In this document: positions 9,439 to 50,348 of the stretch, in pieces
Layout of the letters: each line of letters begins with the position of its first letter
How positions within the stretch are numbered: position 1 is the stretch's first letter
Source of the DNA: Phycisphaerae bacterium
GTDB lineage: Bacteria; Planctomycetota; Phycisphaerae; Tepidisphaerales; Tepidisphaeraceae
Assembly (NCBI GenBank): GCA_025924315.1
Contig: JAICIO010000021.1
Span: forward strand, 1-64,000
Direction: 5' to 3'
DNA length: 64,000 nucleotides
Position numbers and translations under genes: made by a program
Notes under the pieces: model-generated
What the model saw: the letters and a program-made list of their open reading frames with translations, nothing else
Told to the model about the DNA's origin: nothing
The model's database searches: none

Positions 9439-9499
9439 GAATTAAAAACGCGGCGAAAACCGTAACCGGGGGTGCGGTAAGGTGTCAACGTTGTGCGCT

Positions 9500-9533
9500 T
9501 CACGGCCGCCCAGAGCGCAGCGCCGGGCGGCAT
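9500..9533. repeat. inverted repeat, family R (short-loop copy)
   Basis: TCACGGCCGCCCAGAGC followed by GCGCCGGGCGGCAT forms a hairpin 41 bases past the kdgK stop. The same two arms occur inside mtaB at 38304-38363 with a longer loop. Confidence 0.65.
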
Positions 9534-10720: not shown

Positions 10721-10795
10721 GTAGGGTGCGCTTCAGCGCACCGGTTATTCGCTGTGGGCGTGGAGAAATAACGGGTGCGCTGACGCGCACCCTAC
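10721..10795. repeat. intergenic inverted repeat, family A (best copy)
   Basis: GTAGGGTGCGCTTCAGCGCA, then CCGGTTATT, a 20-nt spacer, then AATAACGGGTGCGC and GCGCACCCTAC. Each arm is itself palindromic and the two arms also pair with each other. Confidence 0.9.
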
Positions 10796-14374: not shown

Positions 14375-14461
14375 ACGATCCGTTCGAGGGACCATCTTGT
14401 AGGGTCCGCTTCAGCGGACCGGTTACTTTTTTTCGAAAAGGTGATAGCTGGAAGAAATGAA
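14361..14461. repeat. 15-bp direct repeat flanking a family A element
   Basis: GCTGGAAGAAATGAA occurs at 14361-14375 (the end of the EEP gene) and again, identical, at 14447-14461. Between them lies the family A arm. Confidence 0.8.
14399..14426. repeat. family A repeat, single arm, GGTCC variant
   Basis: GTAGGGTCCGCTTCAGCGGA then CCGGTTAC. It shares the palindromic GGTCCGCT variant with the copy inside mtaB. Confidence 0.8.
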
Positions 14462-18961: not shown

Positions 18962-19981
18962 ATGCCCCGCATCCTCGCCATCGAATCCACCTGCGACGAA
19001 ACCGCGGCCGCGGTCGTGGACGACGGCGTCCACGTCCGCAGCAACGTCATCGCGACGCAATTCGAACTGCACGCGAAGTACCGCGGCGTCGTCCCCGAGA
19101 TCGCCAGCCGCGCCCACATCGAAAACATCCTCCCCGTCATCGACGAAGCGCTGCAAAAGTCCGCTTGCGGTTTCGCAGATCTAGACGCAATCGCCATCGC
19201 CCACCGCCCCGGCCTCATCGGCTCGCTCCTCATCGGAGTCACCGCCGCCAAGACCCTCGCCTGGTCGACGGGCAAACCCCTCATCGGCGTCGATCACGTC
19301 CACGCACACCTCTACAGCGTCGTCCTCGACAAAGGCATTCAACCCGAATTCCCAGCCGTCGGATTAGTCTGCAGCGGCGGGCACACCGCGCTCTACCAGG
19401 TGAACACCTGGTCCGACGTCACACTCATCGGCAGCACGATCGACGACGCCGTCGGCGAAGCGTACGACAAGGTCGCCGCCATCCTCGGCCTCGGCTATCC
19501 CGGCGGACCGATCATCGATCGCCTCGCACAGCAGGGCGATCCGAAGTCGATCCACTTCCCGCGCTCCATGCTCGGCCGCGGCTCGCTCGACTTCTCCTTC
19601 AGCGGTTTAAAAACGGCTGTCCTCTATCACGTCAGAGGCGTGCCGGGAAAGGATGAACATCCCGCGCCGCCGAACGAACAGCACATCGCCGACATTTGCG
19701 CGTCGTTTCAGGCCGCGTGCATCGACGTGCTGATCAAAAAGATTCGCCGAGCGATGGAAACCTTCAACGCGAAATCCGTCATCATCGGCGGCGGCGTCAG
19801 CGCCAACCGCGGCCTGCGCGCGGCGCTGTCAAAATTCGAGGTCCCCGTCTACTTCCCCGAATTGCAATACTGCACCGACAACGCCGCCATGAGCGCCGGC
19901 CTCGCGCACATTTACTTCGAGCGTAACGAATTCAGCCCCCTCGATCTCGACGCAATCACGTACAGTCAATTCCGCCCGTAG
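18962..19981 (+). CDS. tsaD: tRNA threonylcarbamoyltransferase TsaD
   Basis: Transfers threonylcarbamoyl to A37 of ANN-decoding tRNAs (t6A) with TsaB/TsaE. 339 residues, the normal length. N-terminal ILAIESTCDETAAAVV, iron-binding HVHAH in GVDHVHAHLYSV, GAEA-like DAVGEAYDKVA, PGGPIIDRLA and IIGGGVSANRGLR are all present. ATG start; the purine-rich end of a family D repeat about ten bases upstream is the only SD candidate. mtaB, which acts on t6A, is also in this window (37.5 kb). Confidence 0.96.
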   Translation: MPRILAIESTCDETAAAVVDDGVHVRSNVIATQFELHAKYRGVVPEIASRAHIENILPVIDEALQKSACGFADLDAIAIAHRPGLIGSLLIGVTAAKTLAWSTGKPLIGVDHVHAHLYSVVLDKGIQPEFPAVGLVCSGGHTALYQVNTWSDVTLIGSTIDDAVGEAYDKVAAILGLGYPGGPIIDRLAQQGDPKSIHFPRSMLGRGSLDFSFSGLKTAVLYHVRGVPGKDEHPAPPNEQHIADICASFQAACIDVLIKKIRRAMETFNAKSVIIGGGVSANRGLRAALSKFEVPVYFPELQYCTDNAAMSAGLAHIYFERNEFSPLDLDAITYSQFRP

Positions 19982-37465: not shown

Positions 37466-39115
37466 ATGCAAACTTTCTGGATCCAGACACTCGGCTGCAA
37501 GGTCAACAGCTACGAGAGCGAGCAGGTGGCCACGTTGCTTCGCGCCCGAGGTCTGTCCCAAGTCGATCGATCCGGCGAAGCCGACCTCCGCATCGTCAAC
37601 ACCTGTAGCGTGACCCTGCAAGCTGCAAGCAAAAGCCGTCAGACCATTCGACGAGCGACCCGGCTTCCTGTTCTTACCGAGCAACCTCATCAAGCCAACG
37701 ACTTCAGTCGTGGGCAATCTGATGGGCAGTCCAAATCAAGAACCCTGATCATGGGTTGCTGGGCCACATCCGACCCTGAAGAAGCGCGTGCGCTCCCAGG
37801 GGTCGATGCAGTTCTCACTCATCACAATGACATCGAACAGGAACTAACACGTCTCCTCGATCTCTGGTGCGATTCAAGCGAAGCGAGGCAGGCGCCCTCC
37901 ATTACCGAACAACCGGAAAAACCGAAGTCGTCAGCAGAGCCAATCAGGAATGAGATATCAATGATATTGGCTGGAGCTCTGCACAACGATCTCGACACAG
38001 ATAATAAGCCACGCGCGCGCTCAACAGTCAAGAAAAATCCTTCCGGAACTCACCGACTTCCTTTGCTCGGCGAGCGGTATACCGGCCACCAGCGCGCGTT
38101 CCTGAAAATCCAGGACGGCTGCGATGCCCATTGCACCTACTGCATCATCCCGCAACTGCGCCCGACCTTGTGGAGCAAGCCGATCGACGACGCCGTTGAC
38201 GAAGCGCGACGATTGGTCGGTGCCGGTCACGTGGAGTTGGTTCTCACAGGCGTCTTTCTCGGTGCATACGCTCACACGACTGCGTTGCGACGCAAGCAGT
38301 CCCTCACGGCCGCCCAGAGCACCTCGACCGCGCTCGGTACAGGCGAAGCGCCGGGCGGCATCCCGCTCGGGTATTTAATCGATGCTCTTTGCACGCAGGT
38401 TCAGGGACTAAAGAGACTTCGCCTGAGCAGCCTCGAACCCGGCGACCTCACACCCCAACTCGTGGAAGTTCTAAAATCTCACCCCCAGGTCGTGCCGCAC
38501 TTCCACCTCCCGCTCCAAAGTGGCTCCGACGCGATTCTCCGTAAGATGAATCGCCAGTACTCGCGCGATGACTTCCTGCGGATGCTCGACCTCGTCCACG
38601 CCTCCTTCGACCGACCCGCCCTCACAACCGACGTCATCGTCGGCTTCCCCGGCGAGAGCGACGCCGAGTTCGAGCAAACCCTCGACATTGTCCACCGCGC
38701 GCGCTTCATCCACACGCACGCGTTCAGCTACTCCCCGCGAGCTAAGACAGCCGCAGCCCGATGGACGGACGACTTCATCCACGGGCCCGTGGTCAACGAC
38801 CGCATCAATCGCCTGACCGACCTCGCCGAGCAGCACAGCTTCGCCTTCCGCCAACAGTTCCTCGGCGAAACGGTCGAGCTCCTCGTCGAGCGGCCTCTTG
38901 TCGGGTCCGCTTCAGCGGACCGGTTACTTAATTCGAACGGCGAGCATAACCGGTCCGCTGAAGCGGACCCTACAAAGACGCACGGGATTCAGCATGGAAG
39001 ATGCGAACGCTACTTCGATGTGCACTTTGAACATCACGAAGACCTGACCGGGCAATCGGCGCGCGTGGTCATCGAGCGCGTCACCCCGCAGCGAACGTAT
39101 GCGAGGCTCGCATGA
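37466..39115 (+). CDS. mtaB: tRNA (t6A37) methylthiotransferase MtaB with repeat insertions
   Basis: Radical SAM enzyme converting t6A37 to ms2t6A37. UPF0004 cysteines lie in TLGCKVNSYES, VNTCSVT and MGCWATSD; the radical SAM triad is CDAHCTYC; the C-terminal TRAM strands include FLGETVELLVE and LTGQSARVVIERV. At 549 residues it is about 100 longer than usual. The excess includes residues about 280-300 (a family R repeat in frame), about 478-504 (a family A repeat in frame, splitting TRAM) and a long linker before HQRAFLKIQDGC. Overlaps dtd by four bases (ATGA). Confidence 0.9.
   Translation: MQTFWIQTLGCKVNSYESEQVATLLRARGLSQVDRSGEADLRIVNTCSVTLQAASKSRQTIRRATRLPVLTEQPHQANDFSRGQSDGQSKSRTLIMGCWATSDPEEARALPGVDAVLTHHNDIEQELTRLLDLWCDSSEARQAPSITEQPEKPKSSAEPIRNEISMILAGALHNDLDTDNKPRARSTVKKNPSGTHRLPLLGERYTGHQRAFLKIQDGCDAHCTYCIIPQLRPTLWSKPIDDAVDEARRLVGAGHVELVLTGVFLGAYAHTTALRRKQSLTAAQSTSTALGTGEAPGGIPLGYLIDALCTQVQGLKRLRLSSLEPGDLTPQLVEVLKSHPQVVPHFHLPLQSGSDAILRKMNRQYSRDDFLRMLDLVHASFDRPALTTDVIVGFPGESDAEFEQTLDIVHRARFIHTHAFSYSPRAKTAAARWTDDFIHGPVVNDRINRLTDLAEQHSFAFRQQFLGETVELLVERPLVGSASADRLLNSNGEHNRSAEADPTKTHGIQHGRCERYFDVHFEHHEDLTGQSARVVIERVTPQRTYARLA
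38304..38363. repeat. family R repeat inside mtaB
   Basis: TCACGGCCGCCCAGAGC and GAAGCGCCGGGCGGCATCC flank about 24 nt. Both arms match 9500-9533. Read in frame as part of MtaB. Confidence 0.7.
38897..38977. repeat. family A two-arm repeat inside mtaB
   Basis: GTCGGGTCCGCTTCAGCGGA...CCGGTTA, a 20-nt loop, then TAACCGGTCCGCTGAAGCGG ACCCTAC. Complete element in the coding sequence with the reading frame kept open. Confidence 0.92.
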
Positions 39116-40324: not shown

Positions 40325-40396
40325 TGCCACCGATCGGGCGCCGATTCACACCGATCCAAAATCTGCATTATCGGTGCGGTGCCGCATCGGTGGCTA
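40325..40396. repeat. family Q inverted repeat at the mutL 3' end
   Basis: TGCCACCGATCGGGCGCCGA and CGGTGCCGCATCGGTGGCTA. The TAG stop codon of mutL (40394-40396) is in the outer end of the right arm. Confidence 0.78.
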
Positions 40397-42316
40397 AAAA
40401 CCAGTCCGTTTGAATTGCTTCTCAAGATCGCGGAGTGAAAGCCGCAGCGTGGTGGGGCGGCCATGCGGGCAATTACTCGATCGCTCGACGAGCTCCCGTC
40501 GCGCCAGCAAGGCTTCGATCTCCGCAGGGGTCAGCGGATCGCCCGCCTTCACCGCGGCCTTGCACGCCATCATGTCGAGCACTTCGTGAAGCATCTCTTC
40601 GTCATGCAGATCGAGCAATTCCTGCTCGCCGCGCTCGAGCAGCTCCTGCACAAACTTCGCCGGCTCGAGCTTTTCGAGAAACGACGGAAACGATTGCACG
40701 GCGATACTGTTCGGCCCGAAGGGCAACACCTCGATACCGAGCCTTTGCAGCAAGGGCTGAATCGTGTCGAGCATCGCAATCTGCCGACTCGATGCCTGAA
40801 CGGTCTCCGGGATCAGCAATCGTTGCGACTCCAGCGTCCCGCGCTGCACGCGCGCGAGCAATTCCTCGTACATGATCCGCTCATGCAGCGCGTGCTGATC
40901 GATGATGATCATCCCATCGTCGCTCTGCGCGACGAGGTAGCTGTTGTGCAATTGAATTGCGCTCTTGGGAGGCGAGATACTTGGATTTACGCCCTCTCCC
41001 TTCAAGGGAGAGGGTTGGGGTGAGGGCGACGCGTGAATCGGGGAATTGCGATCATCGGAGAAGCGATCCACGACGACTGGCGCAGGAGAACCCGAAACTT
41101 CGAACGATCTCTGCACTGGCGGTGCCGGATCCAACTGCCACGCCGAACCCTCACCCTTACCCTCTCCCTGAAAGGGAGAGGGGACCGGAGGCGCAGTCGT
41201 CTGCGCCGCGCCGGGAATTGCGCTCTTAAAAAACGCCGCCAGCTTCGCCTGCATGTCCTGCCGCTGCGCATCATCCACCGGGTCACTCGCGCGCGGGCTC
41301 GCCTTTGGCGTGAGATCACTCCCGAGCAATCGCTCCCGCACGCTGGCGAGCACCAGCCCGTGAATCCGCCCGCTGTCGCGAAAGCGCACCTCCACCTTCG
41401 TCGGATGCACGTTCACATCCACATCCTGCGGTGGAATCGTCAGCAGCAAAATCGCCGCGGGATATCGCCCCGGCTCGGTCAGCCCGCGATAGGCCTCGCG
41501 CAGCGCGTGCTGAATAAACTTGTCGCGAATCGGCCGGCCATTGAGATAGACGTGCTGGTATTTCCCCGTCGGCCGCGCCAGTTCCGGCAAGCCGATCAAC
41601 CCACTCAAGCGCAGCTCCGCGTCGCGCACCTCGATCGGCAATCGCTGCTCGCGAAACTCGTCCGGCCACGCCGCCAGCAACCGCTCTTCATCCGTCGTCG
41701 CCGGCAGATCCGTCACCACGCGCCCGTTGTGCAGCAGCTTGAACGCAACCTGCGGATGCGGCAGGGTCGTCTTCAGCAATTGCTCCGAGATATGCCCGAA
41801 CTCCGTCGGCGAGCCTTTGAGAAACTTCCGCCGGGCCGGCACGTTAAAGAACAAATGCCGCACCTCGATGGTCGTCCCGACATTGGCGGCCGCCGCCTGC
41901 GGATCCGAAATCTCCCCGCCGCGGTTGAAAATCTCATACCCCGCATCGCTGTCATTGGTGCGCGAAAGAATCCGCGCCTGCGCCACAGATCCAATGCTCG
42001 CCAGCGCCTCGCCTCGAAACCCCATCGTCGCGATCGCGAACAGATCCTCGTCGCTCAGGAGCTTGCTCGTCGCGTGCGACGCGAACGCCAGCCGCAGTTC
42101 CGTCGGCGGAATCCCACACCCGTCATCAATCACGCGAATGAGCTCGCGCCCACCATCCTCAATCTCCACCGTGATGTGCGTCGCCCCCGCGTCGATGGAA
42201 TTCTCAACCAGCTCTTTAACGACCGAAGCCGGCCGCTCGATGACCTCGCCCGCCGCGATGCGGTTGACGAGAGATTGCGAAAGCTGTTGAATCACACGGC
42301 GAGACACGCGGGGCAT
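40394..42316 (-). CDS. mutL: DNA mismatch repair protein MutL (endonuclease type) with a repeat-derived linker
   Basis: Matchmaker and nicking ATPase of mismatch repair. GHKL ATPase motifs: AAGEVIERPASVVKELVENS, DDGCGIP and GFRGEALASI. The C-terminal domain keeps the endonuclease set DQHALHERIMYEE, ACKAAVKAGD and CPHGRPT, so nicking activity is likely. Start at MPRVSRRV; the longer frame is not supported. Residues about 377-442 are a long-loop family D repeat read through in frame (peptides PSPFQGEG and PSPLKGEG). The stop codon is in a family Q repeat. Confidence 0.94.
   Translation of the reverse strand: MPRVSRRVIQQLSQSLVNRIAAGEVIERPASVVKELVENSIDAGATHITVEIEDGGRELIRVIDDGCGIPPTELRLAFASHATSKLLSDEDLFAIATMGFRGEALASIGSVAQARILSRTNDSDAGYEIFNRGGEISDPQAAAANVGTTIEVRHLFFNVPARRKFLKGSPTEFGHISEQLLKTTLPHPQVAFKLLHNGRVVTDLPATTDEERLLAAWPDEFREQRLPIEVRDAELRLSGLIGLPELARPTGKYQHVYLNGRPIRDKFIQHALREAYRGLTEPGRYPAAILLLTIPPQDVDVNVHPTKVEVRFRDSGRIHGLVLASVRERLLGSDLTPKASPRASDPVDDAQRQDMQAKLAAFFKSAIPGAAQTTAPPVPSPFQGEGKGEGSAWQLDPAPPVQRSFEVSGSPAPVVVDRFSDDRNSPIHASPSPQPSPLKGEGVNPSISPPKSAIQLHNSYLVAQSDDGMIIIDQHALHERIMYEELLARVQRGTLESQRLLIPETVQASSRQIAMLDTIQPLLQRLGIEVLPFGPNSIAVQSFPSFLEKLEPAKFVQELLERGEQELLDLHDEEMLHEVLDMMACKAAVKAGDPLTPAEIEALLARRELVERSSNCPHGRPTTLRLSLRDLEKQFKRTGF
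40991..41186. repeat. family D long-loop inverted repeat inside mutL
   Basis: CCCTCTCCCTTCAAGGGAGA GGGTTGGGGTGAGGG on the left, CCCTCACCCTTACCCTCTCC CTGAAAGGGAGAGGGG on the right, 111 nt apart. Same arms as 18791-18951. Confidence 0.92.
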
Positions 42317-42429
42317 TATAGGGGCTGGCTGCGCCTCATCGAAACGACACACGCACATCCGTCCGCTCATCCACAAACGCGTTGCTGACGTATTGTCACG
42401 AGTCAGGGTGGGGCGTCCGCATCCTTACA

Positions 42430-49886: not shown

Positions 49887-50115
49887 GCCGAAGCCCAAGC
49901 CGCCTAATGCCAAATGTCCGGAAGATGATAGGAACCGCTCCGGCGGCCGCTCCTTCCGGCGGGGGGCGCCGCTTGATCGGCGCTCCGTGCCCGTAGAATC
50001 TCCGTTTCCCGCCCCATGTGCCCGCGGGTGCGCGCAACTTACCCTAATTTATATCGCCCGCAAAGTCCTACGGATGAAGGAGAACGGTGATTTGAGAGTG
50101 AAAAGATTTTGACGG

Positions 50116-50348
50116 AAGTCAGAAGCCAGAAGCCAGAAGCCAGAAGCCAGGAGCCAGAAGCCAGGAGCCAGAAGCCAGGAGCCAGGAGCCAGGAGCCAGA
50201 CGGGAAAATGCGCCAGACCAGACGGACGTGTCATTCTGAGCGGAGCGAAGAATCTCCGGATCGACAGCCGCTTCCGATATCGAGATCCTTCGCTGGCGCT
50301 CAGGATGACATCGCGCGCGACTTCTGGCTTCTGGCTTCTGACTTCTCT
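50116..50348. repeat. family I inverted repeat (7-nt units) enclosing family J
   Basis: The left arm is about 11 tandem units of CCAGAAG or CCAGGAG (50116-50200). The right arm is TTCTGGCTTCTGGCTTCTGA (50318-50348). Between them lies a complete family J element. Confidence 0.9.
50230..50311. repeat. family J inverted repeat (nested)
   Basis: GTCATTCTGAGCGGAGCGAA GAATCTC, then GAGATCCTTCGCTGGCGCTC AGGATGAC. A second copy at 56017-56099 is not nested. Confidence 0.88.

Follow-up and report, generated by a model that had tools for sequence, protein, structure and literature searches.

The 64,000-nucleotide stretch analyzed here (hereafter the window) represents contig C21 of a draft genome (6.57 Mb, 262 contigs, 96.8% complete) whose closest named relatives are Phycisphaerae/Tepidisphaeraceae genomes from metagenomes. 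At positions 37466–39115 of its forward strand lies mtaB, encoding a tRNA (N6-L-threonylcarbamoyladenosine(37)-C2)-methylthiotransferase of 549 amino acids, as identified through a profile search (322 bits against TIGR01579) and a domain search that recovered the UPF0004 and Radical_SAM domains. The reading frame is intact as far as its natural stop codon, and this codon overlaps the start of the following gene (39112). Comparison of 32 sequences showed Cys11, Cys47, and Cys98, together with Cys219, Cys223, and Cys226, to be invariant; the cysteines expected from sequence to bind the clusters and act as metal ligands are retained, as are the other invariant residues. No second mtaB occurs in the genome; two further loci that match the family are lower-identity relatives of the MiaB/RimO type. 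TsaD is an enzyme of the t6A pathway, which feeds MtaB, and a tsaD-like gene in the window contains a 21-nt repeat-like stretch (19161–19181, peptide SACGFADL) that may be due to chance.

Two different repeat-derived segments are built into mtaB, as the initial annotation had claimed; both are in frame, the reading frame through them is open, and the residue ranges then given (280–300 and 478–504) are correct. The downstream segment is a two-arm element of a family here called A, a GTAG-tagged head-to-head doublet of 78 nt (38898–38975, forward strand) that supplies 26 codons and the peptide VGSASADRLLNSNGEHNRSAEADPTK at residues ~478–503. Its left arm, GTCGGGTCCGCTTCAGCGGACCGGTTA (38900–38926, forward strand; consensus GTAGGG...), is separated by a 20-nt loop (38927–38946) from a right arm (38947–38973, reverse strand) that is the exact consensus, i.e., the reverse complement of GTAGGGTCCGCTTCAGCGGACCGGTTA. 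The two arms are inverted relative to each other and each is a palindrome by itself, with the element strand folding at −35.5 kcal/mol (z = −9.8). The tag of the left arm reads GTCG in this copy; in the mtaB frame this replaces the codon GTA by GTC, and both encode Val. The upstream segment, designated R-long, is a 63-nt element (38301–38363, forward strand) that supplies 21 codons at residues ~279–299, including the peptide SLTAAQSTSTALGTGEAPGGIP.

The same annotation had raised the possibilities that a relative might carry these segments or that a broken gene might be backed by another mtaB; the relatives were found to lack both segments, and mtaB is single. Element A is missing from the relatives' MtaB proteins in the alignment, where 0–30 residues occupy its site and the residues following the insert align well, while at the R site most relatives have two or three residues and a few carry longer, unrelated inserts. 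Thus, the relatives' MtaB proteins are variable in length at exactly the two insertion sites. No near relative with an unoccupied site was found in the data, so the boundaries given for the insertions are putative. The protein had also been described as about 100 residues longer than usual, which is right relative to its best solved-structure match, MTAB-YVFG model 9a6d (451 residues; TM-score 0.86, normalized by target length). Repeats, however, account for only roughly half of the excess, contributing about 47 codons. The remaining extra length lies in two linkers (residues ~72–90 and ~143–195) that are variable in relatives as well and, when searched against the 1.62 Mb sample, matched no repeat; complete MtaB reading frames of relatives span ~460–645 amino acids from stop to stop. 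In one related genome, an MtaB linker holds a different repeat-like peptide, SDPHPNPLPDYRGRGPEAQRER (L057 591–656), which suggests that other lineages have had repeat families of their own inserted in mtaB.

Structure prediction, proposed earlier as a check, placed both insertions in surface loops. In the AlphaFold model, which otherwise shows a confident MtaB fold, residues 281–296 and 483–500 have pLDDT values below 50 and are bounded on either side by well-predicted strands and helices, so that both repeat segments are predicted to be disordered surface loops. The R insertion lies on the surface of the predicted radical-SAM core, and the A loop connects predicted strands 469–475 and 507–513, the first two of a C-terminal TRAM-like domain. 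From the fold and from knowledge of the family, we take this to be the TRAM domain of MtaB, interrupted by element A; a Pfam search of the protein returned no TRAM match.

Family A is abundant in this genome. Each arm consists of GTAG followed by the palindrome GGTCCGC-TTCA-GCGGACC and then GGTTA; a 23-base pattern, with up to 3 mismatches allowed, detected 783 arms genome-wide (394 forward and 389 reverse), in agreement with the earlier statement that the elements are frequent, and the reversed control pattern gave 0 matches across the whole genome. The source genome contains ~390 inverted doublets. A sample of contigs totaling 1.62 Mb yielded 226 arms, most of which belong to 103 head-to-head doublets, the usual unit, with loops of 16–29 nt (mode 21). 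The GTAG tag precedes nearly all arms, and the 7-bp stem occurs in two subfamilies (GGTCCGC/GCGGACC and GGTGCGC/GCGCACC) that differ by paired, compensatory changes. The window contains one other doublet, of the GGTGCGC subfamily (10721–10795), and a single arm (14399–14425, forward strand). Among 25 members of the same family of bacteria, matches remained at the chance level of 0–5 per genome, and a stricter pattern matched 722 times in the source genome versus 0 times in 297 other Phycisphaerae; an Rfam search gave no match. Confinement of A to the source genome at high copy number indicates that its expansion is recent and lineage-specific.

The genomic distribution of A argues against the idea, put forward earlier, that such elements are selected to keep frame. 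A simple gene finder based on codon usage assigned 88% of bases to coding sequence, and coding status was determined by ORF-level scoring, an earlier classifier based on 180-nt flanks having been too weak and having missed mtaB. By this measure, 69 of the 103 sampled doublets fall between genes and 32 extend across a gene end; only one, the mtaB copy, is gene-interior, and one further copy encodes the final residues of a protein (a C-terminal tail). The median distance from a doublet to a gene 3′ end is 12 nt, and the flanking gene pairs are convergent, unidirectional, and divergent in 47, 47, and 6 cases, respectively, against a background of 228, 824, and 228. Doublets of family A therefore favor convergent gene pairs and avoid genes. 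Two of the six frames are open in most copies, and the doublet length is a multiple of 3 in 42 of 102 cases, without clear bias. Because A lengths show no clear frame bias and genes are avoided, the mtaB copy is a rare survivor rather than a representative of frame-keeping elements.

Only two full-length copies of R-long exist in the genome, the one in mtaB and another at 2537–2599 of contig C142; a consensus query matched both over their full length with 94–95% identity (E about 1e-22 and 3e-21). Chance similarity, considered as an explanation of R, was ruled out by this second 63-nt copy, which is likewise in frame, within a membrane glycosyltransferase-like protein of 533–595 amino acids whose neighboring paralog (40% identical) has a shorter loop at the same point. 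Dozens of shorter REP-like copies of TTCACGGCCGCCCAGAGCGAAGCGCCGGGCGGCAT, some of them in inverted pairs, match the end thirds of R-long; R-long is best explained as an R-family REP-like element with an enlarged 24-nt loop. A short intergenic R element also occurs in the window (9499–9533, forward strand), and further copies are in frame in an S58 peptidase gene, in other genes, and in IspD, where the element occupies a loop of variable length. The exact R pattern had no match in 25 genomes of the same bacterial family. The R arm TTCACGGCCGCCCAGAGCGAAGCGCCGGGCGGCAT carries neither a GTAG nor a CGTC tag, and since both published tags are absent, R is not classed as a GTAG or CGTC REP.

These two families are not alone. 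At least ten further repeat families, mostly palindromic, were found in the 1.62 Mb sample, and in-frame two-arm repeats occur in DnaE (contig C2; L161 5980–6050), in HrpA (contig C1; L160 11233–11296), in PMT-type transferases (contigs C16 and C22), and in other genes. The HrpA insert corresponds to residues 604–635, which are unaligned against the HrpA structure 9ggr. In mutL, a neighbor of mtaB in the window (40394–42376, reverse strand), two in-frame copies of another palindromic family, CCCTCTCCCTT..AAGGGAGAGGG, lie at 40992–41026 and 41160–41194, in the linker between the N-terminal domains and MutL_C. A tandem GAAGCCA/GGAGCCA array, of a family also present elsewhere in the genome, is found at 50101–50212 of the window. 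As a rough figure, ~15–20 internal insertions occur per 1300 genes, at which rate about one doubly hit gene in the genome is estimated to be expected by chance. A double hit therefore needs no selection for frame-keeping elements; the argument that two insertions in one gene are improbable does not call for it, as survivorship under purifying selection suffices.

A search for the mobilizing enzyme covered all ten Y1_Tnp genes in the genome, some of which lie near contig ends, and among them no Y1 transposase gene was detected that has A or R arms of its own on both sides. A TnpA gene situated between inverted A arms on contig C56 was considered as the autonomous parent of A and rejected. It belongs to a nested IS200-like tnpA element (L035 1316–2055) that inserted right after the GGTTA of the left arm, as deduced from the complete, typical A loop kept on its right side. 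A Y1/RAYT gene on contig C20 (L042 1384–2047) is flanked by a different palindromic family, CACAGCCGAGGGCGGCTGTGCCACA, with which it likely forms a transposase–repeat pair.

It is highly probable, in our judgment, that two mobile palindromes of the REP/REPIN type were taken up separately by mtaB and were kept as open, in-frame, loop-located segments. Several families of such palindromes would bombard this genome; A would be a GTAG-tagged REP doublet (REPIN-type) and R a REP-like element, both small and non-autonomous, that entered mtaB in separate events. From established knowledge of REPs and REPINs, A and R may move as single-stranded hairpins by means of a Y1/HUH (RAYT-type) transposase; the confinement of A to the source genome bears on such movement only indirectly. 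Purifying selection would have purged many out-of-frame or disruptive insertions, and the retained intragenic copies would be those that are open, in frame, and positioned in tolerant, length-variable flexible loops. Most likely, MtaB still works as an enzyme and carries both insertions as neutral passengers. It is very improbable that mtaB is instead decaying, with its product ended or crippled by the mRNA hairpin or by the insertion into the TRAM domain: the hairpin in the sequence is very stable and the TRAM-domain loop is enlarged, but the reading frame continues to a natural stop overlapping the next start, the metal-ligand cysteines and other invariant residues are kept in a genome lacking a second mtaB, and the residues after the insert still align well with those of relatives. 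An assembly chimera, in which short-read assembly joined unrelated sequence via a repeated element, might be suspected in a draft of 262 contigs with A so highly repeated; since normal reads are longer than the 78 nt of element A, and both flanks of A and of R are homologous, in frame, to the same MtaB protein, it is extremely improbable.

The frame usage of R calls for separate consideration. Of the 25 R units classified, eight are located within predicted genes, and five of the seven clear internal ones (in mtaB, on contig C142, in IspD, and in genes on contigs C103 and C67) use the same frame, TAAQS..APGGI, a bias that is suggestive only (P about 0.012 after correction for the choice of frame); the two copies of R-long also agree in frame and in length, 63 nt being a multiple of 3. 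These figures could be read to mean that R, possibly together with other families, has become adapted to coding sequence in the manner of the Rickettsia palindromic elements, with one frame, TAAQSEAPGGI, shaped so as to yield harmless or useful loops. We regard this as quite improbable, given that the numbers are small, that the two R-long copies may not be independent, that 17 of the 25 units are intergenic, and that the gene finder may add bias of its own. The favored frame is poor in bulky or charged residues, and because it is also the least arginine-rich and the most loop-like, the bias is explained by selection on the host proteins.

Family A matches the tested features of GTAG REP head-to-head dimers and of the REPIN architecture. 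Like the dimers described by Di Nocera et al. (2013; PMC3733652), its inverted doublets have stem-loop arms with GTAG at the outer ends, occur at high copy number in intergenic regions close to the 3′ ends of genes, where the flanking pairs are convergent or unidirectional, and have rare in-frame copies; unlike them, its sequence is so far restricted to the source genome. The same study describes GTAG REPs as located near gene 3′ ends and between convergent genes, and reports occasional in-frame intragenic copies of GTAG/CGTC REPs of 20–30 amino acids, two insertions in one gene (uvrA of Opitutus, O. terrae), and an insertion into a tRNA-modification gene (truB); its authors, too, propose flexible linkers or loops (PMC3733652). 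Because double insertions and insertions into tRNA-modification genes are thus on record there (PMC3733652), the kind of event seen in mtaB is already known; mtaB and the class Phycisphaerae are not named in the parts consulted. As in REPINs (Bertels and Rainey, 2011; PMC3116915), the inverted doublet forms one long hairpin with compensatory arm changes and an extragenic bias, but in contrast to REPINs with their RAYTs, a RAYT gene flanked by A arms was not found among the ten Y1_Tnp genes. The Rickettsia palindromic elements (Ogata et al., via PMC3733652 and PMC10969869) resemble R and other families here in lying in frame inside unrelated housekeeping genes, whereas their ~150-bp type is larger than A or R, a CGTC tag, absent from A and R, is present in RPE-4/6, and A, unlike these elements, is almost never found in genes. 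In that they are retained within proteins, A and R behave in the manner of the Rickettsia palindromic elements; membership in that group is not claimed.

The present findings extend the catalogue of genes with protein-built-in palindromic mobile DNA to the Phycisphaerae and to mtaB. It is conceivable but unlikely that several of the palindromic families, above all R, are coding-compatible mobile elements whose consensus, read in a preferred frame, encodes a small hydrophilic peptide that forms a loop; were this true, the spread of such families through genes would continually supply new protein loops outside the Rickettsiales. With its many repeat families and its many coding insertions, in DnaE, HrpA, and IspD among others, this genome of a free-living organism lends itself well to testing how loops are added to enzymes by mobile hairpins and whether purifying selection alone filters frame.
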